DNA of 15,122 bases from Thermoplasmata archaeon (GTDB taxonomy: Archaea > Thermoplasmatota > Thermoplasmata > Thermoplasmatales > Thermoplasmataceae), in assembly GCA_021799755.1 (NCBI GenBank), contig JAJYZU010000015.1, positions 1 through 15,122 on the forward strand, read 5' to 3'. This document shows, in pieces, positions 1 through 14,107 of the stretch. Position 1 is the first letter of the stretch. The number at the start of each line of letters is the position of its first letter. Made by a program: the position numbers and the translations under genes. The notes under the pieces are model-generated. The model had not been told where the DNA came from. It did not search any database and saw only the letters and a program-made list of their open reading frames with translations.

Positions 1-2350
1 TCTTCATAGAATCGTATACGGCCTGGGCAATGTTACTAACGATGTGCTTGATTATGCTCTGCTGTGTTATCAACAGGATACGCCAGTTATTGTCCTTGAG
101 AGGATCAAATTCCTCTCCGAACAGCCTATGTCTTATGTATTCATCCGTAAGCTTTGCGATGAGGGCTGAATTCACCTGCATTAATGGAAAATCCCTCTGC
201 TTTCTTCCTCTGGCATTCACATGGATTACTGAAACTGCATTAACTACTTTCTGGATGAATGAATTATAACTCTTGGCAGTGAATATGTCTGCTGTGACTG
301 TGTATTCACCAAAGGTCGTCTTTACTGTGAGCTCTTCGCTGTAAAAGGTGTCTCCCTTGTTCTTTACCAGAGGTCTTAATTCTTCAAGTTTCATGGGAAA
401 CGGTTCAAGTTTTTCAATGGATAGATCGGGGACTGCAAGCTCCTCCTCCTTTTCCTGCAATATTATGATCCAGAAAAGGTCATAATCTCTGTAGTTTGGT
501 TTGAGTCCGACCCTGATAAGGTCACCCACAACCTTTGTCTTTGCTGGCTCTTCTCCAACTTTGCCGACCATTCCAGCAAGGACTCTTTCGTAATACTCGA
601 TGAAGTTGGGATGCTCGACCACGCTCAAGATATCTATGTAACTGTCAGGTTCTTCCTTCTTCACCAGGAGTTTTTCCCGGTTCTCTGACCTTATGTCGTC
701 ATAGTCTGGTCCCCGCCACATCAGCCTTAGGCCTCTTCCTATCAGTTGTTCTAGAAGAACATAAGAAGATGCTGATCTGAGAGGAACTATAACGCAGATG
801 TTGTTTACGTCAAATCCTTCCCTGAGCATCAGGACAGAAACTATCACCTTTGGTTTCTCGTGTCGGTCTATGTCAAACAATCTCTGCTCTATTGCCTTCC
901 ACTCATCTTCACTGACATCGCCCTTCTTGGTGGAATGAATCTCCATTACTTCATCCTCGGAATAGCCCTCCTTCATCATAAAGGCTACAACAAGAGGTAC
1001 TACCTTAGTATCTTCACAAACGACAAGCATCTTCGGGTATTTTGTGGGATCAAGTTTTGTGAATTTCTCCTCCAATATGTTGAGTTTTTTCATTCCGGCC
1101 CTAAGCATCAGTTTCTGGCCATCTGAAAGACTGGATACCTGCCTGCCTTCGCGCTCGGCCTTAAATTCCAGGTCTTCAAGAGGTATGGCACCAAATTCCT
1201 TTCTCTTGTCAATGGCTACTGTCTTTACTAGTCCTTTCTTTATGGCATCCACTAGTTCGAAATTGGCCACGATGTGCGGGAAGTGATTTTGTACCCTGCT
1301 CTGGCCGCTTCCTGTGACCACGTATGGGGTTGCAGAAAAATCAACTTGAATGAAACGGTTCTTCTTGTTCTCTGATATCCTGTCGAGTGCTTCCTGCCAT
1401 TTCTTCTCCACGATTTGGTCCGATTTCTTCATCTCTCCAAGGTGGTGGGCCTCGTCATTGAAAACGACGAGACTGGGTAAATTGGCCAGGTAATTCAGTT
1501 CCTGCCCTCTGAGGTATTGATTGTCCAGTTCTTCCAACGAGTGACCCTGTGAAGTTCCTGGCGTAATGGGCAGCAGCTCATTCACTGTTATATCTGGTCT
1601 GTCCAACGGTGATTCGGCGTCCATAGCTTCCTCGTCCTCTGTCAGCAGGTGCCAGTTCGTAATTGCGATCAAGCCGTCACCGGTCACCTTCTTGCCGATT
1701 TCTTCCTTCTGTGATACACAGCCCTGGATGAATCCAAAGATCTCGTCCTTGTGTGCCGAAGGGATAAAGAGCTTTTCAAATTTCCAGAAGTCGGATTGCT
1801 CAAAATCCCTGGTTCCATCTTCTCTTCGCTTGCCTAGATACGCATCCAACAACCTTTCATAGACGATAATTCCCGGAGCAACCAGAAGGAAATTCCTGGA
1901 ATACTCACCGCTTTCACTTTCTTCGTACTTTGAATTTAGGTATTGCCAGATCAGCAACGCGTCAAGAACCCAGGTCTTACCAGTCCCTGTGGCCATTTTA
2001 ACGCAATATTTTGGATGCTCATACTTATCCCGCTTCAGATCAAGCAGATCCATTTGAGCCAACAATTCGGGATAGATTTGAGTATAGATTTCTCCAACGC
2101 TTTTGAGTTTGAGTACCTCATGGACGTAAATTATATTCAGAATGGCTTGCCATTGGCCCTCATGGAAGTTAATGTTTCTTTCATCGGAGAAAATACCATT
2201 GGGGTCCCAGAATTTCAGAAGTTCCTGTGTTATGGGCGTGACTTTCTGCATGAAGTCTCCGGATTTCCACAAATCGCTGGCTTCTTCTGTTATTCTTTTC
2301 GCAAGTTTTAACGGGATGTCTTTGGTGCCAAGAGATTTTATGTTTACCAT
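1..2350 (-). CDS. res: Type III restriction enzyme, Res (helicase/endonuclease) subunit, 3' end cut by window edge
   Basis: ATP-dependent restriction subunit that partners with Mod, translocates on DNA and cuts it. I read one continuous frame from the ATG at 2350 to the left edge (783 codons, no stop reached). Superfamily 2 helicase motifs appear in order: Walker A MATGTGKTW at about residues 119-127, the DEAH-type motif II NDEAHHLGE at about 298-306, motif V-like LREGFDVNN near 505, and motif VI QLIGRGLRLMW near 532. Type III Res proteins are usually 900-1000 residues, so the C-terminal endonuclease domain lies outside the window. The start is set by a GAGGT ribosome binding site at 2357-2361, six bases upstream. 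The ATG overlaps the mod stop by one base (TGATG), which indicates translational coupling. The family call is firm; recognition specificity cannot be read. Confidence 0.93.
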   Translation of the reverse strand, partial: MVNIKSLGTKDIPLKLAKRITEEASDLWKSGDFMQKVTPITQELLKFWDPNGIFSDERNINFHEGQWQAILNIIYVHEVLKLKSVGEIYTQIYPELLAQMDLLDLKRDKYEHPKYCVKMATGTGKTWVLDALLIWQYLNSKYEESESGEYSRNFLLVAPGIIVYERLLDAYLGKRREDGTRDFEQSDFWKFEKLFIPSAHKDEIFGFIQGCVSQKEEIGKKVTGDGLIAITNWHLLTEDEEAMDAESPLDRPDITVNELLPITPGTSQGHSLEELDNQYLRGQELNYLANLPSLVVFNDEAHHLGEMKKSDQIVEKKWQEALDRISENKKNRFIQVDFSATPYVVTGSGQSRVQNHFPHIVANFELVDAIKKGLVKTVAIDKRKEFGAIPLEDLEFKAEREGRQVSSLSDGQKLMLRAGMKKLNILEEKFTKLDPTKYPKMLVVCEDTKVVPLVVAFMMKEGYSEDEVMEIHSTKKGDVSEDEWKAIEQRLFDIDRHEKPKVIVSVLMLREGFDVNNICVIVPLRSASSYVLLEQLIGRGLRLMWRGPDYDDIRSENREKLLVKKEEPDSYIDILSVVEHPNFIEYYERVLAGMVGKVGEEPAKTKVVGDLIRVGLKPNYRDYDLFWIIILQEKEEELAVPDLSIEKLEPFPMKLEELRPLVKNKGDTFYSEELTVKTTFGEYTVTADIFTAKSYNSFIQKVVNAVSVIHVNARGRKQRDFPLMQVNSALIAKLTDEYIRHRLFGEEFDPLKDNNWRILLITQQSIIKHIVSNIAQAVYDSMK

Positions 2351-4500
2351 CAACTGACCTCTTTGATCGCAACGCTTTCAAACCCAAAAACGTCCACCGC
2401 TTTCACACAGACCTTTCTCATCCCTTTAGCTTTGGGAACAAGCAGTTTCACTTTCCTGTCCACTTTCGATGTACCTTCGTGGTTTTCCCTGTAATCCTGC
2501 CATTTGCTCCTGAACACTTGCCCATCATACTCAGGGTCGATACTCCAATACTCAACAAGGCTCAATGGGTCTTCCTCGATTATCTTCTCAAGTTTGTCCT
2601 TGTCTGCCTTATCTAACGGTAGTGCATCTGGAGATAGGAGAACATAGTTTTCGAGCTCAATAATTAGCTCTTCCTTATCGTCTTCTGCCGCTTTCCTAAT
2701 GATCGGTTTTACAGTGAGGTATTGCAATGAGCTGAATCTTACGCTACCTTCCTTTATGAGTTTTTCATAATCGGCTTTGTGTTTTAGTTTTTCCAGCAGG
2801 TCTGGGGGAATCACCAGTACTTCGAGTTTATCATCGTTCAGACTGTCTATGATCTTACCGATATCCGTTCCAAAATTCCAACCTAGGACAATTATTTTCT
2901 CCCATCCTCCCATGAAAGAAGCTCTGAGCTCTTGGGCCTTTTTGAGGGTCGCATATCCCGTTATCTTTGTTGGGGAGTCGACAAATACAAGTGTCTTGCT
3001 CTGTTTTATGTATCCTAGATTAGCAGGTGTACCATCCTGCATCGGAAAGGGCAGAGCACCATATAGGTTGATCACTACATGAGCAAGATCACCTATACGC
3101 CTGAATTGCGATCTTTCGAACTGTTCCTTCTGGTAATCTCCAATGGCTTGGTAAAGAAATGGCTTTGAATCTTGGTCAATAAGACGTTTTCTTGAGATCA
3201 TACACGCAGGTTTCCCAAGATCGCACATAATCCAGTTTCTAAGAAGTTTTTCAGCTACAACGCCTGTTGTGCCAGATCCCGCGAAGAAATCTGCTATAAT
3301 CGAGTCTTCGTTTGAAGACGCCTTAATGATCCTTTCTAATAATTTATCGGGCTTTTGCGTCGAATAACCTCCGGAGCCACCCTTCATTCTACCAACATCT
3401 TGCCAGATATCTTGAATCACCTGGCCTTCAGCTTGTCTTTCTTCCAGATAATATACTCTACATCTTTGGGCACCCTTGGGATATTTTGGCAAGAATAATT
3501 TCCCTTGCCGTAACATTTCTTCCATTTCTTGCTCTGTGCCCATCCATTGAAGACCTGCTTTTGGCAGAACGCCGCGCCAAACAAAAATTCTATCTGGGTT
3601 ATTCCCCTTTTGAGTTGCTCTCTCTAACTTGACTATCTTAGCTCCCTCTGGGATTGGAGCGGTTTTTTTCACAATTTTGCCATTGGGCAACTCCATCCAA
3701 GAATACTCCTTTATGGCGCTTTCAGATAGGCTTACTGTGACTTTGTCCCAGTTATAAATTGACCCCCCCTTCACTTTGGAATAATGCAGAATTGTATCGT
3801 GTATATTCCCATATTGATTCTTGGCATCATTATGTGGGTCAGCTCGCTGCCAGATTATCTCATTCCTGAAATTCTCTTTCTGAAAGACTGCATCCAAAAT
3901 AACTTTCACATAATGTCCTATGTGCCAATCTATGTGAAGGTATAGTGAGCCTTTTTCACTCAATAGCTCTCTCATTAAAAATAATCTCGGAACTATCATT
4001 TCCAAATAAGACTTTGTTCCATCTTTCCAGGTATCAGAGTAAGCAAACTGCTCTATAACCGAGGGCTTTTGTTCAATGTCCATAGATGGGAGGTGTATTC
4101 TTGTTCGATAATCCGCCTTGCTGTCAAAAGGAGGATCGATATAAATCAAGTCTATCTTGCCTCGCATTGAGGGCAGACCAGAATCTGGATCACCTGCAAG
4201 AAGTGCCTGCATTGCAAGAAGATTATCACCATAAATGAGCCTGTTGAGAAACTCATTGCTCTCTTGGCTTTTGACTGTTTGACCTGTGAATTTGGTTAAG
4301 CCACCCTCCGCTTTTGTTGGAAGTACCAGTTCGTTTGTCTGTAACGTTATTCTCTGTGACTTTGATAGTCCCTCCAGAATTTTCTGGGCCTCCTTTTTAC
4401 CTCTTTCGACTATTCTTGGGAGTTCTTCAATTAATGACCTCTTCTGCCCATTTCCACCTTTTTGAGTTGGATCACTTTTTTCCTCCGACGTATCAACCAT
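2350..4500 (-). CDS. mod: Type III restriction-modification DNA methyltransferase, Mod subunit
   Basis: Adenine-N6 type methyltransferase that sets the recognition specificity of the R-M system. The motif order is that of the beta class: DPPF (motif IV) at residues 122-125 within LIYIDPPFD, then STQKP (motif X) near 380-384, then FFAGSGTTG (motif I, SAM binding) at 405-413. The long stretch between DPPF and STQKP is where the target recognition domain normally lies. The C-terminal 280 residues carry no motif I can name. Length is 716 residues, within the Mod range. I chose ATG 4500 over an in-frame GTG at 4512 because GGTG at 4506-4509 gives a ribosome binding site six bases upstream of the ATG. 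It ends in a one-base overlap with res. The gene lies 27 bases downstream of the Cdc6-like gene, so co-transcription is possible. Confidence 0.93.
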
Positions 4501-4505
4501 GTAAA

Positions 4506-4509
4506 ACAC
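4506..4509 (-). promoter_or_regulatory. Ribosome binding site deciding the mod start
   Basis: The minus strand reads GGTG followed by six bases and ATG (4500). This core of the archaeal anti-16S complement favours ATG 4500; the in-frame GTG at 4512 would include the site itself in the coding region. Confidence 0.5.
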
Positions 4510-4527
4510 CACGATATTGAGTGCTAC

Positions 4528-5613: not shown

Positions 5614-5643
5614 TGTATCATCTGCAATGCACAATAATTCTCA

Positions 5644-5667
5644 GATAGTAAGGTTATTAATACTATC
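5644..5667. promoter_or_regulatory. Inverted repeat overlapping the TATA region of the Cdc6-like gene
   Basis: Perfect 7-bp arms GATAGTA (5644-5650) and TACTATC (5661-5667) flank a 10-base centre. The minus-strand TATA-like TATTAATAA lies inside it, about 45 bases before the ATG at 5613. This is a plausible operator for autoregulation; the binding protein is not known. Confidence 0.45.
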
Positions 5668-5711
5668 GAACGAGTCGAACACATGTGTGTTAGGAAATGG
5701 TAATTTCTGAT

Positions 5712-5728
5712 GCAAGAGTGTGTGTATC
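5712..5728 (+). repeat. Left arm of the origin-flanking inverted repeat
   Basis: Reads GCAAGAGTGTGTGTATC on the plus strand. Its partner is inverted at 5857-5873. Confidence 0.6.
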
Positions 5729-5856
5729 AAAAAACGAGTAAATTTTTACATTGGGATGATGTTATTCAAAAAATACGAAAAATTCCATTTTTTAGAATAT
5801 AATGTTCATTGTATCAGTTATATATTATATATAATAAAGAGCTTGACGCGTTCGGA

Positions 5857-5873
5857 AACACACACACTCAAGC
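5857..5873 (-). repeat. Right arm of the origin-flanking inverted repeat
   Basis: Reads GCTTGAGTGTGTGTGTT on the minus strand and continues into TCCGAACGCG. It shares GC, two differing bases, then GAGTGTGTGT with the left arm. Confidence 0.6.
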
Positions 5874-5913
5874 AAAGAATGACTATTGGAATGACGCATT
5901 TCGCGACTCTCTC

Positions 5914-7120: not shown

Positions 7121-7396
7121 TTATTCACGAGTTAACCGTTTCCTGATTTCAGTTTCAACGCTCTCCATGTCCTTGCCTTTCTCCTGCTCAATCCTGTCAA
7201 TATCAGAACGCCACTTCTTTATTAGATCATCAGAACCAAAGTACTTGGAGTATCTCTTGTAAGTTTCATACTGCCTCTCCGTTACCTTGAAACCCACTGT
7301 CTTTGTGTATCTTTCTGGCCCTTCGTTTATTTCATTGCCAGAGCGCGAATTTCGGGATATTAGGCTATCCAAACCTCTCTTCCTGATATCTGTCAT
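7121..7396 (-). CDS. Small ribbon-helix-helix-like protein, probable ParB-type partner of ParA
   Basis: 91 residues. A central segment, KTVGFKVTERQYETYKR (about 32-48), fits a short beta strand followed by a helix as in ribbon-helix-helix DNA-binding proteins. A basic, flexible N-terminus (RKRGLDSLISRNSR) precedes it, and a charged helical tail follows. ParA operons often encode such a small centromere-binding protein directly downstream; N-terminal basic tails of these proteins stimulate the ParA ATPase. I chose ATG 7396 over ATG 7399 because an AGGTGA site lies at better spacing for it. Its ATG overlaps the parA stop by one base (TGATG), so the two are translationally coupled. The RHH fold is inferred from sequence pattern and context, not from a strong motif. 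Confidence 0.7.
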   Translation of the reverse strand: MTDIRKRGLDSLISRNSRSGNEINEGPERYTKTVGFKVTERQYETYKRYSKYFGSDDLIKKWRSDIDRIEQEKGKDMESVETEIRKRLTRE

Positions 7397-8148
7397 CATT
7401 TCACCTTTAATCTTCTGTCAAGCTCTTTTGCCAGTTCCACATAGGATTTTGAAGCTGGTGCGTTCCTACGATATTTCACAGCTGGCGATCCTGCCATTGT
7501 CGAATCCGTTACTGTAACATTCCTTGGAATTATTGTCTTGAACAAGTTCTTTGCATAGTGCTTCTTCACATCCTCAAGAACCTCTTTCGACGACCTTGTA
7601 CGAGCGTTGAACATGGTCATTACCATACCGGGAAGTTTTAGGTTCTTCGCAAGCCTTGAGTTTACCAGGTCTATGACCTTCAGAAGTTGTGTAAGACCTT
7701 CCAAGGCGAAGAACTCTGCCTGCACCGGTATAAGGACATAATCGGATGCCACCAGTGCGTTGATGGTGAAGACACCAAGGCTTGGTGGTGTATCAATCAG
7801 GATATAGTCATATTTCCTTGATATCCTTTTAAGTTCGTTGTCAAGGATATATTCCCTTCCAATTTTTCCTGTGAGCTCGACCTCGGCTCCTGCCAGGTCA
7901 ATGGTGCTAGGCACTAGGTCCACACCATCCTTCTGGATTATGGTATTCTCGATCCTTCCGTTGAGCATGGTGTCATAGATGGTGTATTTCAGGTCATCTT
8001 TGTTTATGCCAAAATGAGTTGTGAGGTTTCCCTGAGGGTCTATGTCAACCAGTAATACCTTGTGCCTCTCCGATAGCAGTGAGCCTAAGTTTGCGGCAGT
8101 AGTTGTCTTCCCGCAGCCTCCCTTTTGGTTGGCGATGGAGATGATCAT
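7396..8148 (-). CDS. parA: ParA-family partition ATPase
   Basis: Cytoplasmic Walker-type ATPase that moves or positions plasmid copies on the nucleoid. 250 residues. The deviant Walker A motif KGGCGKTT with the signature lysine is at 9-16, the A' box LLVDIDPQGN at 32-41, and Walker B YILIDTPPSLG at about 115-125. There is no N-terminal helix-turn-helix domain, so this is the short Type Ib/Soj-like form, in which the partner rather than ParA usually regulates the promoter. It is divergent from the surface-protein gene at 8295, and the 146-base gap contains the phased heptad repeats. It overlaps the downstream RHH gene. Start ATG 8148 gives the standard MIISIANQKGG beginning. Confidence 0.95.
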   Translation of the reverse strand: MIISIANQKGGCGKTTTAANLGSLLSERHKVLLVDIDPQGNLTTHFGINKDDLKYTIYDTMLNGRIENTIIQKDGVDLVPSTIDLAGAEVELTGKIGREYILDNELKRISRKYDYILIDTPPSLGVFTINALVASDYVLIPVQAEFFALEGLTQLLKVIDLVNSRLAKNLKLPGMVMTMFNARTRSSKEVLEDVKKHYAKNLFKTIIPRNVTVTDSTMAGSPAVKYRRNAPASKSYVELAKELDRRLKVK

Positions 8149-8169: not shown

Positions 8170-8218
8170 AGTTAAGAGTTTATGGTTAACTCGCTTGGAA
8201 TAACGGTTAGCGGTTAAC
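8170..8218. repeat. Phased 7-bp repeats (GGTTAAC type): candidate partition centromere and operator
   Basis: Cut in steps of seven from 8170, the sequence reads AGTTAAG, AGTTTAT, GGTTAAC, TCGCTTG, GAATAAC, GGTTAGC, GGTTAAC. Units 3 and 7 are identical; unit 6 differs by one base and units 1 and 5 by two; unit 4 is unrelated. The block overlaps the TATA-like CATAAAC of parA (minus strand, about 8183-8177). The omega protein of Gram-positive delta/omega partition systems, also an RHH protein paired with a ParA, binds tandem 7-bp heptads in its promoters, which serve as the centromere. The heptad sequence here differs from the omega one. Role is inferred. Confidence 0.6.
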
Positions 8219-8232
8219 CTTTCCAGAAAGCC

Positions 8233-9215: not shown

Positions 9216-9368
9216 ATGTTAATATCCCAAACCACCACTGTCATCATCGCTGTTCTACTTATAGGAGAGGTAGCACTGCTTCACGCGCTCAAAGTCCCTA
9301 AAGAGTTGGCTGGTCTTGCGCTGGGCGCCACCATCTTTCTGCTTCTATTTCCACTGCATATATTATGA
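9216..9368 (+). CDS. Small membrane protein with two predicted transmembrane helices, unknown function
   Basis: A 50-residue frame from ATG 9216 to TGA 9366-9368. Two hydrophobic segments, VIIAVLLIGEVALLHAL (about 9-25) and LAGLALGATIFLLLFPLHIL (about 31-50), are joined by the short polar loop KVPKE, making a helical hairpin. A TATA-like box at a leaderless distance supports expression. It overlaps the end of the convergent HerA-like gene by six bases (9363-9368). Proteins of this size and shape include holins, conjugation accessory proteins and small toxins, but the sequence does not decide between these. The case rests on composition, promoter and lack of any other use for this gap. Confidence 0.55.
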   Translation: MLISQTTTVIIAVLLIGEVALLHALKVPKELAGLALGATIFLLLFPLHIL

Positions 9369-11138
9369 GTGGCCGCTCCTTTCAGTTTCTATTAGCATTT
9401 CCCTGAGCGAATCCATTGTTATTGTCGATACACGTTCTCCAAGCCCCTTGTACTTGTCAATCAATTCTTTATTGGGAACGATTATTACCACTCTCAGGTT
9501 CGTGCCTGCAATCCTTTCCTTCAGGTCCTCCATGCTGTGCTTCAGGCCTGTCTCAATCTCTACCATGAAGAAATCTGTCTCTACGTCGAAGGCCCCTCTC
9601 TCTCCCGTGGTGGATATCCTGTTAATGGATACGCCGAGTTCCGTGAGAATGTCTACTGCCTGGGATTGCATTCCCGTGTGCAGATTCGAAAGATTAGGAC
9701 GCCTGGAATAGTACATCACAATGGGCTTTCCGTCCCTGAGATACTTAACCCTTCCAACCTCGTTGCTGTTTTTCAGCTCTTCCAATACCGACTTTATCCT
9801 CAGCTTTGCCTGGTCTTTTTCTATGCCGTATTTCGCGGATATTTCCTTGCCCATCTCAGTTGCATAGGACATCCTCTCTCCGAGGATGAGAAGAACCTCC
9901 TCCTTAAAGTTGATATCCTTCCCTCTCCCTCCTGCTCCCTCTTCCATCTTTATTTCCTTTACCGCTGCAAGAATCCTTGGCGATTCTTTGTATTCGGTGC
10001 CGTTGGGTATGTACGTCATTACAGGGTTAAATGCCTGGCTCTCTGGGAACTCTATGTCCGTAAATTGTCGAGGATGCAGCACAGAAACGGAATATCTCAC
10101 AAGCTGGTTGTAGGAGAGCATCTGCAGATCAGCATCTCCAAGCCTGAATGAGAACTTTGTGCCAAAGTTCGCTCTCATTTCCGGTAGTATGTCGATGAGG
10201 TTCTGCGTTATGATCCAGAGCATTCCCTTGTCCCTTATTTCCCTGCTCATTACGTCGAGGATGGTGTGGTATGATTTCGTGAGCCTGTGGGCCTCGTCTA
10301 TGCAGATAAGCACATCCTTCCTTGCTCTGGATTCCATCTCCCTATAGATTTGCCTGAGCATCAGCTCGGCATAGAAATTCTGTGCCTGTTTTGTGGGCAG
10401 TGTTGAGAAGTCAAACACAGTGCTTTCGTTGGCAAGCTCTACATTCCCCATATCTTCCACAACAAGGGATTTCACGTTCTGCTCTATTGCATTGAGCGTC
10501 TCGATCTGGTTCTTCGATGCCGATCTCCTCTTTTCGCTGATCGTTTTCATGAAGCTTTTCCAGTCGCTGCTTTGCGATGCTATTTCCTGCAGGAACGCCG
10601 GCGTTTGCTGCAATTGAATGCCTGAGCTTACCTTCTCTCCGAAGAATGCCGTCATATACGATTCGGAGAAGGCGTTTATGTCCCTGAACGGATTTGGAAG
10701 GCACTGCTTTGCTTCTATCACTGGAATTCCCAGGTGAACCTCATGGTCATCTGGCTTAAACGAGAATATGATCCTCTGCCTGTCTTCGAATTTATGCAGG
10801 AGGTGCATTGTCAGGTAACTCTTTCCTTGGCCAGAAACGCCCGTTATGGATACATTGCGGTTTCCCTTGTGCTCTATGTAGTCCCTGAGATCTGTCGCTT
10901 TAGGGGAGCATTCCTCTCTCCTGAACTTTCCTCTCTCAACATCGGGTATGATGTTGTAGGCAAGCGTCGTATGACCGGCAAACCTTCTTAGTCTCCTTGA
11001 GAGGTCATAGAATAACCTCTGCTCATTCCTAAGAGGCAGATCTATGAATGGCTTTGACAACACGCGCCTTGCATTTATGAGCTCCGAAAAGCCATATTCT
11101 CTCATAGTCGTATTCTGGCTTTCCAAATATTTATTCAT
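9363..11138 (-). CDS. HerA/VirB4-superfamily ATPase with C-terminal winged helix and endonuclease-like domain
   Basis: Ring-forming DNA or protein translocase of the FtsK-HerA type; 591 residues. Walker A GVSGQGKS is at 100-107, Walker B LICIDEAH at 277-284, and a sensor-like WIITQNLIDILPEMRANFGTK follows at about 308-328, which is typical of HerA-like ATPases (glutamine after the strand, then the FGTKFSFRL strand). A linker leads to a winged-helix-like stretch (about 410-480) and a last domain (about 490-585) with an alpha-beta-beta-beta-alpha-beta pattern like PD-(D/E)xK nucleases: D518, then VEIETG at 526-531. The usual catalytic Lys of ExK is Glu here. No NurA gene is adjacent, unlike repair HerA loci. 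It is the last gene of an operon after a four-helix membrane protein (six-base gap), suggesting a membrane-associated DNA-transfer or packaging role; anti-invader defence is an alternative. Confidence 0.82.
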   Translation of the reverse strand: MNKYLESQNTTMREYGFSELINARRVLSKPFIDLPLRNEQRLFYDLSRRLRRFAGHTTLAYNIIPDVERGKFRREECSPKATDLRDYIEHKGNRNVSITGVSGQGKSYLTMHLLHKFEDRQRIIFSFKPDDHEVHLGIPVIEAKQCLPNPFRDINAFSESYMTAFFGEKVSSGIQLQQTPAFLQEIASQSSDWKSFMKTISEKRRSASKNQIETLNAIEQNVKSLVVEDMGNVELANESTVFDFSTLPTKQAQNFYAELMLRQIYREMESRARKDVLICIDEAHRLTKSYHTILDVMSREIRDKGMLWIITQNLIDILPEMRANFGTKFSFRLGDADLQMLSYNQLVRYSVSVLHPRQFTDIEFPESQAFNPVMTYIPNGTEYKESPRILAAVKEIKMEEGAGGRGKDINFKEEVLLILGERMSYATEMGKEISAKYGIEKDQAKLRIKSVLEELKNSNEVGRVKYLRDGKPIVMYYSRRPNLSNLHTGMQSQAVDILTELGVSINRISTTGERGAFDVETDFFMVEIETGLKHSMEDLKERIAGTNLRVVIIVPNKELIDKYKGLGERVSTITMDSLREMLIETERSGHS

Positions 11139-11144
11139 ATCCAG

Positions 11145-11549
11145 CTACCTTCTTATTACGTATCGTCGGTGGAGGTTGACTGTTATTGTATAGTGCTCCA
11201 CCTTTACCGTATGGGTTTCTATCAGGTATACGAGTATTATGACGCCGATAACGACAGCGAGAATTATGCTGTATTCGAGACCAAGGGCAAGGTAGATCAG
11301 GTATGCCGGAATGCCAAATATTAAGGCAAAAATGAAGACATATACGAGAAGAATGAGAGCACAGTACAACAGGACAAGAGCTCCAACGAATGCCAGCAGA
11401 AACCCCACAACCCCGATTGTCTCATAGAATATGTTGCCGGACATTGTCATGGCAAAGAGGAAGGACCAGAAACATTGCCATACCAGGCCGGTTATGAACA
11501 CCGAAACTGCGGTGATCAGGAATCCGAAGGTTAGAGCATCCTCGTCCAT
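11145..11549 (-). CDS. Integral membrane protein with four predicted helices, partner of the HerA-like ATPase
   Basis: 134 residues, not recognised. Hydrophobic segments lie at about 7-33, 45-65, 66-88 and 91-110, followed by a short C-terminal tail that is basic and beta-like (KVEHYTITVNLHRRYVIRR). The acidic N-terminus (MDEDA) and basic end suggest the tail is inside the cell. ATG 11549 has a GAGGT ribosome binding site five bases upstream. Two bases separate it from the gene before and six from the ATPase gene after it, so it belongs to one operon. A small membrane protein just before a HerA/VirB4-type ATPase is a common arrangement in conjugation modules, where it would form part of the channel; that role is inferred from position only. 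Confidence 0.72.
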   Translation of the reverse strand: MDEDALTFGFLITAVSVFITGLVWQCFWSFLFAMTMSGNIFYETIGVVGFLLAFVGALVLLYCALILLVYVFIFALIFGIPAYLIYLALGLEYSIILAVVIGVIILVYLIETHTVKVEHYTITVNLHRRYVIRR

Positions 11550-11551
11550 GA

Positions 11552-11914
11552 TTACCTCTGTGCCCTGAATCTCCTGTTCGGTGTCAGTGTTGCAGATATC
11601 GATGCTTCCTCGCGCTTGAAGATCAGCCCGCGTCTCGTAATCACGAGATCCATCCTCAATACAGGATTTGATTCGTACTCCACGTAGCTTATGTCGGGAT
11701 TCCGTTCCATGAACTCCCGAATTGCTGCGATCTGCCTCCTGTCCTCAAGCTCGTACTGGTTAACCGTTTTCTCGATAACCGTTTCCTGAAGCCTCTCTAT
11801 GGTGCCTTTTCTTTCTGGCTTTGCTACATCGTATCTCACTATCTCAGGCGCGGAACCCTCAAAATAAACAGGCCCCTCACCGTCATTTCCCAAACTCACT
11901 CTCACCTTTTTCAT
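11552..11914 (-). CDS. Conserved-looking 120-aa protein of unknown function in the HerA-like operon
   Basis: Soluble protein starting MKKVRVSLGNDGEGPVYF, with a helical, charged middle (about 38-72, alternating Glu/Lys/Arg, possible coiled coil) and a beta-rich, basic end. No motif I recognise. A longer reading from ATG 12004 exists, but its first 30 residues overlap the preceding gene in another frame; ATG 11914 forms a four-base ATGA overlap with the stop of that gene, which strongly favours the short form. The gene contains two copies of TAACCGTTT 15 bases apart that resemble the parA heptads. Confidence 0.68.
   Translation of the reverse strand: MKKVRVSLGNDGEGPVYFEGSAPEIVRYDVAKPERKGTIERLQETVIEKTVNQYELEDRRQIAAIREFMERNPDISYVEYESNPVLRMDLVITRRGLIFKREEASISATLTPNRRFRAQR
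11758..11784. repeat. Heptad-like GGTTAAC and repeated TAACCGTTT inside the 120-aa gene
   Basis: GGTTAAC lies at 11758-11764, and TAACCGTTT occurs at 11761-11769 and again at 11776-11784. The second copy extends to a 14-base identity with 7133-7146 (end of the RHH gene), read in a different codon frame. Possible extra binding sites for the partition protein. Confidence 0.35.
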
Positions 11915-12696: not shown

Positions 12697-13986
12697 TTAG
12701 AATGGCAGTTTCATTATAGCCTTTCCGTTGGGCAGGACTGCCTGGAACTCGTATCCTTCGCTGAGGAGCTTCTCTATCTCGTTCATGGGAACGAGCTTCT
12801 GCTTCGAGCCGTTGCTTGCCATTGCTCCCGCCACCTTGTCTCTCAACAGCTTCTGGAAATCCTCTGTGGTTGTATCTGCAAGATTCATCCTATCTATTTC
12901 ATCCTGCCTGTATCCCACTGCGGAAAGAAGCTGCTGCTGCAAATAAAGTCTTGCGTTGTCCTCTGATACCTCGCTCACTCTCGTTTCCATATACTTGAGG
13001 CATTTCTGATATGACTGCCTCATCTCCTCTATCATGTCAGGCGGTAATCGCTTGTTTGTGGAATATCTCGCCTCTATGTCTCCCTTGTGGCCCATTATGA
13101 ACTGCCTCCAGGGATGCGATATCAGGCCCTTGGATTCCGCAATATCAAGTGCAGTTGAGAAGTATGCCCTGAGCACGTATGGCCTCATCTTCAGTCCTGC
13201 CTGTTCTATCGCTTCCCTTATGTCCCTTGTAACCAGAGTCGTCCGTAGGAAGTTGTTCTTCTTTACGCCTCTCACATCGAACTGCAGCAAAGGGGAATCA
13301 TATGTCAGCTCTTCCCCCTGTTTTCTCCGCTCTTCCAGATACTCTTTAATGTAGGTTGCCCCTTCTTCACCAACAAAGCTGAAATACTGGTGCCTAGCCT
13401 TGCTCAGCTTGTTCTTGACCACAATCATTGCTGGTATTTTGTCGAACTGTATCTTGTCTGCTAATCGCAAATCCTTGAGATCGCCAAGTCTGAGACCGTC
13501 CGTACCTTCATAATCTCCAAGGGATTCTGGCCTCAAACCGGAGAATGCCATAATCGCTATTGCAACCCTAGCTCTTGAGGTAGCTTTCCTCATGATTCTT
13601 GCCAGCTCTTCCTTGCTTGGCACCCTCTCGTTAGCGATTGTCGGTGTTTCGTTTTCCCCAGAGATGTTAACGGTTAACTGCAAACCGATACCGTTAAACT
13701 TCAGCCATGATAGAATGACCTTCTTGAATCTCGCTATGTATGATCCTGCCTTGCCCTCTTTCTCCATCTTCCTGACAAAATCTGTAAATTCGTACCTGAA
13801 ATCCTTCTCATCCGCCCCTGCCTTTTTCAGGATTTCTTTTGGATTTGTCTGGGTAAGTTCGCAATAATGGCCAAGATTTCTCAATGCCACTGTTGCCGTA
13901 AGAACAGACTTTGCCCTTAGGTTCTCAAACCACCTTCGCACGTCCTCGTCAAGAAGCAGTTCCCGATACTTTGGCTGCATGGTCAT
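12697..13986 (-). CDS. int: Tyrosine recombinase (archaeal integrase)
   Basis: Catalyses integration and excision between the tRNA site and the circular element. 429 residues. An N-terminal SAM-like core-binding domain (about 5-110) precedes the catalytic domain, with the first Arg at 152 (SGLRPESLG), a candidate Lys at 192 or 194, the second Arg at 273 in a YVLRAYFS box (the usual His is Tyr270), His300 (MGHKGD) and nucleophile Tyr308 (ARYS). About 120 residues follow the tyrosine; the end (EIEKLLSEGYEFQAVLPNGKAI) resembles tails seen on other archaeal integrases. The gene is intact, so this is not the SSV type that splits its integrase on integration. ATG 13986 fits a leaderless transcript from a TATA box near 14011; ATG 13980 is an alternative. 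It faces away from the tRNA-Ala gene, 49 bases from its 3' end. Confidence 0.93.
   Translation of the reverse strand: MTMQPKYRELLLDEDVRRWFENLRAKSVLTATVALRNLGHYCELTQTNPKEILKKAGADEKDFRYEFTDFVRKMEKEGKAGSYIARFKKVILSWLKFNGIGLQLTVNISGENETPTIANERVPSKEELARIMRKATSRARVAIAIMAFSGLRPESLGDYEGTDGLRLGDLKDLRLADKIQFDKIPAMIVVKNKLSKARHQYFSFVGEEGATYIKEYLEERRKQGEELTYDSPLLQFDVRGVKKNNFLRTTLVTRDIREAIEQAGLKMRPYVLRAYFSTALDIAESKGLISHPWRQFIMGHKGDIEARYSTNKRLPPDMIEEMRQSYQKCLKYMETRVSEVSEDNARLYLQQQLLSAVGYRQDEIDRMNLADTTTEDFQKLLRDKVAGAMASNGSKQKLVPMNEIEKLLSEGYEFQAVLPNGKAIMKLPF
13665..13678. repeat. Tandem heptads TGTTAAC-GGTTAAC inside the integrase gene
   Basis: Two contiguous 7-bp units match the parA upstream array; a related reverse-oriented GTTAAAC lies 14 bases on, in the same 7-bp phase (13693-13699). 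The stretch encodes part of the linker around residues 103-108, so it is not an intergenic control region. Confidence 0.45.
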
Positions 13987-14035: not shown

Positions 14036-14107
14036 TGGACCGGTCGGGATTTGAACCCGAGGCCTCCTGCTTGCGAAGCAGGCGATCTACCGCTGATCTA
14101 CCGGCCC
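14036..14107 (-). tRNA. tRNA-Ala (anticodon CGC), integration target
   Basis: A 72-base cloverleaf can be folded by eye: acceptor GGGCCGG paired with CCGGTCC, D arm GATC/GATC, anticodon stem CCTGC/GCAGG with loop TTCGCAA, T arm TCGGG/CCCGA with loop TTCAAAT, and discriminator A. The G3-U70 pair is the alanine identity mark, in agreement with anticodon CGC. CCA is not encoded. The 3' end faces the integrase gene, the usual arrangement when an element recombines with the tRNA 3' half and leaves an intact gene. I found no second copy of the tRNA 3' end in the window. Confidence 0.95.

Follow-up and report, generated by a model that had tools for sequence, protein, structure and literature searches.

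Which function do the 7-bp repeats upstream of the parA gene in this DNA from a Thermoplasmata archaeon serve, and what kind of partition system do they form with the small gene behind parA? The whole stretch of 15,122 bp that was analyzed is referred to as the window. The first-pass annotation had tentatively seen in the repeats and in a small RHH-like protein an archaeal counterpart of the delta/omega partition system, situated in an integrated element. This interpretation was partly supported: the array, its 7-bp phase, the pairing of the two genes, and the surrounding element stood, while membership in the delta/omega family did not. The locus is genuine and conserved, its parts fit together functionally, and it probably represents a new form of ParA-based plasmid partition, for which the labels RHH and delta/omega are unproven. 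The features are compiled in Table 1.

Table 1. Positions of the features in the window
Feature	Position	Strand	Remarks
Conserved intergenic region between resolvase and orc, presumed origin	5635..5913	−	17-locus alignment, read by eye
Orc1/Cdc6-like initiator, 368 aa	4528..5634	−	TIGR02928 E 1.5e-29, 103 bits, below curated cut-off of 181
Serine resolvase, 201 aa	5914..6519	−	Pfam Resolvase E 3e-43
3' array remnant	7121..7138	−	one GGTTAAC in last partner codons
Partner gene, 92 aa, presumed centromere-binding protein	7121..7399	−	overlaps parA end
parA, Soj-type deviant Walker-A ATPase, 250 aa	7396..8148	−	PHROG 164 E 5e-66; Pfam AAA_31 E 1e-61
5' array, candidate centromere and operator	8171..8219	−	periodicity and conservation
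TATA-box position of presumed parA promoter	8172..8177	−	consensus TTATAA, window TCTTAA; inside heptad 7
P-loop ATPase, element core gene	9363..11138	−	weak VirB4/CedD/HerA resemblance
Tyrosine recombinase (integrase), 429 aa	12697..13986	−	weak: PHROG 1 E 1e-5, XerA E 4e-11
Integrase-internal site GTTTGCAGTTAACCGTTAAC	13666..13685	−	codons 102-107, plus at most two bases ahead of them
tRNA-Ala (CGC), presumed integration target	14036..14107	−	

On the plus strand, positions 8170 to 8218 read AGTTAAG, AGTTTAT, GGTTAAC, TCGCTTG, GAATAAC, GGTTAGC, and GGTTAAC. The heptads had been counted correctly, with two exact copies of GGTTAAC, one with one mismatch, and two with two mismatches; “seven consecutive” heptads was generous because AGTTTAT and TCGCTTG deviate and five units fit. 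Owing to the palindromic GTTAAC, strand and frame of the array are ambiguous, and both were settled by the related loci in favor of the coding (minus) strand. Read from 8219 to 8171, the units are GGTTAAC, CGCTAAC, CGTTATT, CCAAGCG, AGTTAAC, CATAAAC, and TCTTAAC, which gives a consensus unit 5'-NNNWAAC-3' with AAC at the end of five of the seven units. The array is not contiguous but consists of two heptads, two weak units (CGTTATT and CCAAGCG), and three heptads. Its 7-periodic score of 70 was reached at some point of the sequence in a fraction of 0.0006 of 5,000 dinucleotide shuffles of the 137-bp intergenic region and attained by 17 of the 15,074 49-bp stretches across the whole window, with scores above 70 only at starts 5780 to 5792 in an A+T-rich region.

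A search for such arrays upstream of parA in related loci, which the first-pass annotation had proposed, found the array in all 27 loci read (25 distinct sequences), a set without repeats of the same place (L083, L085 to L088, L090, and L110), without the fragments L103 and L104, and without L092, where the array is present but parA is split. Mean information in the three parts of the array was 1.83, 1.46, and 1.88 bits per column, compared to 0.22 to 0.43 bits further upstream, as calculated from 23 distinct gap-free rows after leaving out two identical rows and L005 and L089, which are one base longer. Beyond the array, the upstream DNA diverges and conservation is near background. L005 and L089 contain GATTAAC GGTTAAC, with a spacing of 15 bp between the clusters instead of the 14 bp elsewhere, and L099 has TGAAAAC GGTTAAC; these variants show that the letters change while AAC keeps its 7-bp phase. 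The heptads are thus confirmed as real and non-random. When the two 5' boxes were searched in 117 genomes, the matches were mostly the cassettes and the remainder weaker single matches, with a few matches of the reversed controls. An orphan array containing both boxes, without a match for parA or the partner, was found in L124 (positions 1502 to 1548; G053:C13:38353-38400) upstream of an acyl-CoA dehydrogenase-like gene and looks like a recombined remnant.

The position of the array relative to the parA start codon needs to be considered for its function. The TATA-box position lies 24 to 29 nt before the ATG, which fits a leaderless transcript, and the array covers the presumed BRE/TATA position 24 to 36 nt before the ATG. 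With TTATAA at this distance, the partner bound to heptads 5 to 7 would block the promoter. Operator function alone could explain the 5' array because of this overlap: the partner may repress parA and neighboring promoters without any centromere being involved, and a TATA-like sequence follows some of the 3' arrays described below as well (for instance, in L091). An operator without a centromere should be evaluated together with the sites that are not located at a presumed parA promoter.

The 7-bp phase recurs in two separate arrays, one behind the partner gene and one within the integrase gene. The 3' array was evaluated in 26 loci, 24 of them distinct, since L099 and L109 end too early. GTTAAC or GCTAAC followed the partner stop codon in 19 of the 24 distinct loci; the window and the four others were without a 3' array at this position. 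A further AAC was found 7 bp after this first unit in 14 and 14 bp after it in 6 of these 19 rows, and among the other offsets between 3 and 14 bp, only 10 bp (three rows) and 13 bp (one row) occurred. In L139, the end of the partner gene and its 3' array are present a second time (10327 to 10404), separated from the intact gene upstream by about 660 bp.

The integrase-internal site combines AGTTAAC/CGTTAAC in 7-bp phase with an inverted TGCAAAC. The codons TTG CAG TTA ACN GTT AAC were exactly present in all 15 full-length integrase genes, and codons 94 to 107 represent the most conserved 14-codon stretch of the gene, with synonymous positions fixed. In a set of 30 integrases graded by identity, which overlaps in part with the 15 full-length genes, the exact site occurred in 17 of 18 integrases with at least 84% identity and in one with 80%, but in none of the 11 with 74% identity or less, a pattern that phylogeny by itself could explain. 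A GGTTA-type word pair in a 150-aa open reading frame (11759 to 11780) was rejected as a coding coincidence, with one or both cores missing in 7 of 21 loci.

A pattern of two heptads, GTTAACYNNWAAC, which was derived from the arrays themselves, matched 93 times in nine cassette-bearing genomes, with 82 matches inside the elements and 11 elsewhere as sorted in this analysis, compared to 24 matches of the reversed control in the same nine genomes. Outside the elements, the word was not enriched (11 versus 24). This concentration in the element and the phased site within the integrase gene, where no promoter would be expected and synonymous positions are nevertheless fixed, argue against a pure operator, as does a partner that is paired with ParA and carries a putative ParA-binding motif like that of ParB. 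An array that acts solely as an operator is consequently rather unlikely.

The site within the integrase gene may also indicate that the heptads serve the integrase as arm-type or directionality sites, or that they are kept by exchange of modules through recombination there. This site lies about 300 bp into a gene whose start is near the tRNA, and it is kept in L183, a locus with integrase and ATPase in whose 16 kb neither ParA nor the partner was found. Moreover, the DNA shifts abruptly at the edge of the 5' array, and there is the orphan array of L124 in genome G053. The two further arrays, however, flank the parA-partner pair at a distance of kilobases from the attachment site; all 11 integrases with 74% identity or less are without the site, and ParA, the partner, and the site were all missing from 12 surroundings of such distant integrases, some of which are cut by contig ends. 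A role of the heptads in integration or module exchange is therefore very unlikely, and a role in partition is preferred.

The gene order of the element in 20 loci, as far as the contigs or stretches reach, is integrase, three to four small genes, P-loop ATPase, variable genes, array, parA, partner, variable genes, resolvase, orc, and cargo, with the integrase conserved across the element family. A tRNA-Ala gene adjoins the integrase in 11 of the 18 loci scanned (CGC in eight, TGC in three), and most of the loci without it are cut off at this point or stop short of it. In L145 (8732 to 8982), only the 3' part of the tRNA-Ala gene adjoins the integrase, and the 5' part is replaced. An exact copy of 18 to 22 bp of the tRNA 3' end was present 17 to 32 kb away in all six elements tested, which came from four genomes; several of these elements have more than one candidate end, and the window itself ends inside the element. 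The presumed origin could be aligned in 17 of 21 loci (L133, L137, L146, and L150 were left out) and is composed of two arms at about 5716 to 5738 and 5844 to 5867 around an A+T-rich core at 5795 to 5837. The arms contain GAGAGAG/CTCTCTC in one subgroup of loci but GTGTGTG/CACACAC in a second, which looks like a joint change of initiator boxes in the two arms.

Iteron-like phased repeats can mark origins, and the element encodes an Orc1/Cdc6-like protein, so that the GTTAAC arrays may be considered as its iterons for replication or as boxes bound by Orc. The separate origin-like region with its A+T-rich core, located directly upstream of orc, contained no GTTAAC in any of the 17 aligned loci, which renders a function of the arrays in replication initiation highly improbable. 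With its resolvase, an integrase at tRNA-Ala, repeats resembling att sites, and an origin-like region next to orc, the element looks, as judged from its genes, like an integrated plasmid, and the claim of an archaeal integrated element as host of the array was borne out. This plasmid-like appearance gives partition a reason.

Other parts of the element should also be mentioned. The core ATPase is situated beside a membrane protein-like open reading frame (9363 to 11549), and this pair could represent a DNA-transfer motor. Within the ATPase gene, codons 1 to 12 and about 396 to 401 show a synonymous codon identity of 0.97 to 1.0 across loci in 6-codon windows. The cargo in the window (positions 2 to 4512) is a type III restriction-modification-like pair, named from reading the open reading frames; L133, L134, and L149 have closely related versions of both genes behind orc. 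A second element family (L185 to L188 and L191) has an integrase with 70 to 73% and an ATPase with 28 to 30% identity; no match for ParA or the partner and none of the sites were found in these five loci.

The closest solved relatives of ParA are 8ray (218.2 bits), 1wcv (168.8 bits; annotated as “segregation protein” and presumably Soj), and other proteins of the Soj type. Orf delta' (2oze) scored far lower with 74.7 bits, and 7dut, deposited as Soj protein and presumably SegA, reached 83 bits versus 169 bits for 1wcv. The partner had 242 related proteins at E ≤0.001, including the query. All 27 full-length partner genes, that of the window included, are encoded behind a parA: 25 directly behind an intact parA, the gene of L082 about 340 bp behind, and that of L092 behind the split parA.

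The N terminus of the partner, KKRGLDSLIS or RKRGLDSLIS in the version of the window, matches the N-terminal motif of chromosomal ParB proteins. The N-terminal region of ParB binds and activates ParA, as described in PMC12462528. The pattern [RK]G[LI]xx[LI][ILFM] was present in 76 of 81 partner proteins. Near the N terminus, it was also found in 62 of the 73 neighbors of related ParAs from other taxa (74 loci were surveyed, with no open reading frame at L034), a number that needs to consider that the pattern was broadened after inspection and that a stricter first pattern matched 21 of the 73. As a background, the pattern was contained in 67 of the 978 open reading frames ≥150 aa at the same loci, those neighbors included. 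The octamer RGLDSLIS is common to the partner and four of the ParA neighbors. Residues T34, G36, F37, and K38, which would be part of a strand in contact with DNA, are invariant in the 81 partner sequences. This invariance would fit a DNA site that is itself invariant, but is no proof of the fold. Another small non-ParB partner accompanies a Soj-like ParA in L007, L011, L014, L032, L038, L050, L054, L058, L064, and L068, mostly in Methanobacteriaceae and other Euryarchaeota. It combines a ParB-like GLGxGLDxLI tail with the conserved domain NPRITLWSxRSAAVxRYLRKTEPEFSISKEAS and in many cases has an acidic linker; the tail is also visible in L008, which is truncated by the end of its contig.

Membership of the system in the delta/omega family was not supported: the ParA is Soj-like, and neither Omega_Repress nor another RHH family was matched. 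The partner of the window had no Pfam match at E ≤1 and no match to an RHH family in PHROGs or NCBIfam; no RHH or ParB family was among the Pfam matches of 24 partner members at E ≤10, and searches of the PDB with the partner gave no match. Two AlphaFold runs yielded pLDDT values of 51.3 and 54.6. The first model displayed strands at 31-34 and 37-40 and helices at 41-54, 56-74, and 78-90, the second model no strand, and Foldseek, used with the first, low-pLDDT model, returned 0 matches. A comparison by hhalign with 30 RHH_1 proteins of the same order aligned the expected strand and helix but at a probability of 0.5% (Neff 1.75), and the RHH_1 HMM scored the partner of the window with −0.2 bits, with 47% of 2,025 shuffles being as good. 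An RHH fold is still conceivable, since the partner alignment is shallow and an obligate dimer may, under this condition, be missed by every one of these tests. A control search for Omega_Repress in five bacterial genomes gave no match anywhere and was uninformative.

The partner occurred in 17 of the 117 genomes of the order, with as many as three copies per genome, among them fragments. In a profile search of 400 genomes sampled from the class, 14 contained it, all of which were known from the search of the order, and the best six loci of a genome scan for ParA relatives carry this cassette. It is present in the cultured organism Cuniculiplasma divulgatum and probably also in Thermoplasma volcanium. 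No relatives of the partner were found in viral contigs with six exact peptide patterns or in plasmids and phages by tblastn at E ≤0.01. Titles and abstract starts of open-licence literature contained no description of this cassette, which is weak evidence of absence. Some copies are located on long chromosomal contigs, and a ParA closer to Soj-type proteins than to the plasmid protein delta would also be expected for a chromosome segregation system of the host, similar to SegAB. The patchy distribution among the genomes and the heptad word that is not enriched outside the elements leave hardly any probability for such a host system.

A plasmid partition cassette with the arrays serving as centromere and operator fits these data best, and its most likely form is a ParA of the Soj type that is driven by a small protein with a ParB-like tail, which would bind the heptads and may have an RHH fold. 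The protein of about 90 aa would bind the 7-bp-phased NNNWAAC heptads, probably as adjacent dimers. Upstream of parA, it would cover the promoter used by TFB and TBP and repress its own operon. Bound upstream of parA, at the end of its own gene, and inside the integrase gene, it may form the centromere complex, and its RGLDSLIS tail would engage the Soj-type ParA on the nucleoid and trigger ATP hydrolysis. Following excision into an active episomal state, the Orc-replicated plasmid would be distributed to the daughter cells in this way. That array and parA-partner operon form a partition cassette of tRNA-Ala-integrating plasmids of Thermoplasmatales that operates by this complete mechanism is considered likely.

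A wider reading is conceivable but somewhat less likely than not, namely that the cassette belongs to a hybrid archaeal class in which a Soj-type ParA is driven by a ParB-like N-terminal activation peptide that is attached to unrelated small DNA-binding domains. In the plasmids of Thermoplasmatales, the domain would read a heptad-phased centromere, convergent with delta/omega, and the same tail would be attached to a different conserved domain in Methanobacteriaceae; the centromere copy within the integrase gene may tie partition to integration. The data suggest a repeated emergence of 7-bp-phased centromeres and a transfer of the activation peptide of ParB from one DNA-binding domain to another. 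Archaeal ParA-based segregation has been described for few systems in the literature covered, SegAB on chromosomes and the plasmid pNOB8, and since the cassette is compact, with two genes and a well-delimited candidate centromere, and present in a cultured organism, binding and plasmid stability are directly testable.

To understand the position of the cassette among partition systems, its features can be compared with those of the known ones. Like delta/omega of pSM19035, it combines a small partner with ParA and several promoter-overlapping arrays of 7-bp units per replicon, as described in PMC9499535 for that system, in which each omega dimer binds one 7-bp unit. Here, several sites are present as well, before parA, inside the integrase gene, and, in most loci, after the partner gene, and the phased array covers a par promoter that was deduced from the TATA position. 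The heptads are NNNWAAC (GGTTAAC) and interrupted, compared to 7 to 10 consecutive WATCACW units per site in pSM19035; ParA is of the Soj type and not of the delta type, as indicated by the bit scores given above; and the partner has no detectable sequence relation to Omega_Repress or other RHH families and an N-terminal tail unlike that of omega. Full activation of the ParA ATPase by omega needs four contiguous heptads, according to PMC9499535, so that the weak units of the interrupted 5' array may be bound too, or this requirement may differ.

With SegAB of the Sulfolobales, the cassette shares the archaeal host, the overlapping two-gene arrangement with parA first, and sites just upstream of the ParA gene. 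SegB binds the 13-bp palindrome TCTAGASTCTAGA at many chromosomal places, as stated in PMC12284271, whereas the sites described here are 7-bp phased and concentrated in a mobile element. The ParA-AspA-ParB system of pNOB8 is likewise an archaeal plasmid partition system in which ParA is accompanied by a centromere binder other than ParB, as outlined in PMC9178275, but it uses three proteins, and no third gene is conserved directly beside the cassette. The Soj-type ParA and a partner N terminus with what appears to be the RGLxxLI motif of ParB resemble chromosomal ParABS (Soj/Spo0J); in contrast to ParABS, the partner is short (92 aa), without a detectable ParB domain, CTPase or HTH, and a heptad array would serve as the centromere. 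The cassette probably works like those of pSM19035 and SegAB but, judged from the features tested, belongs to neither.
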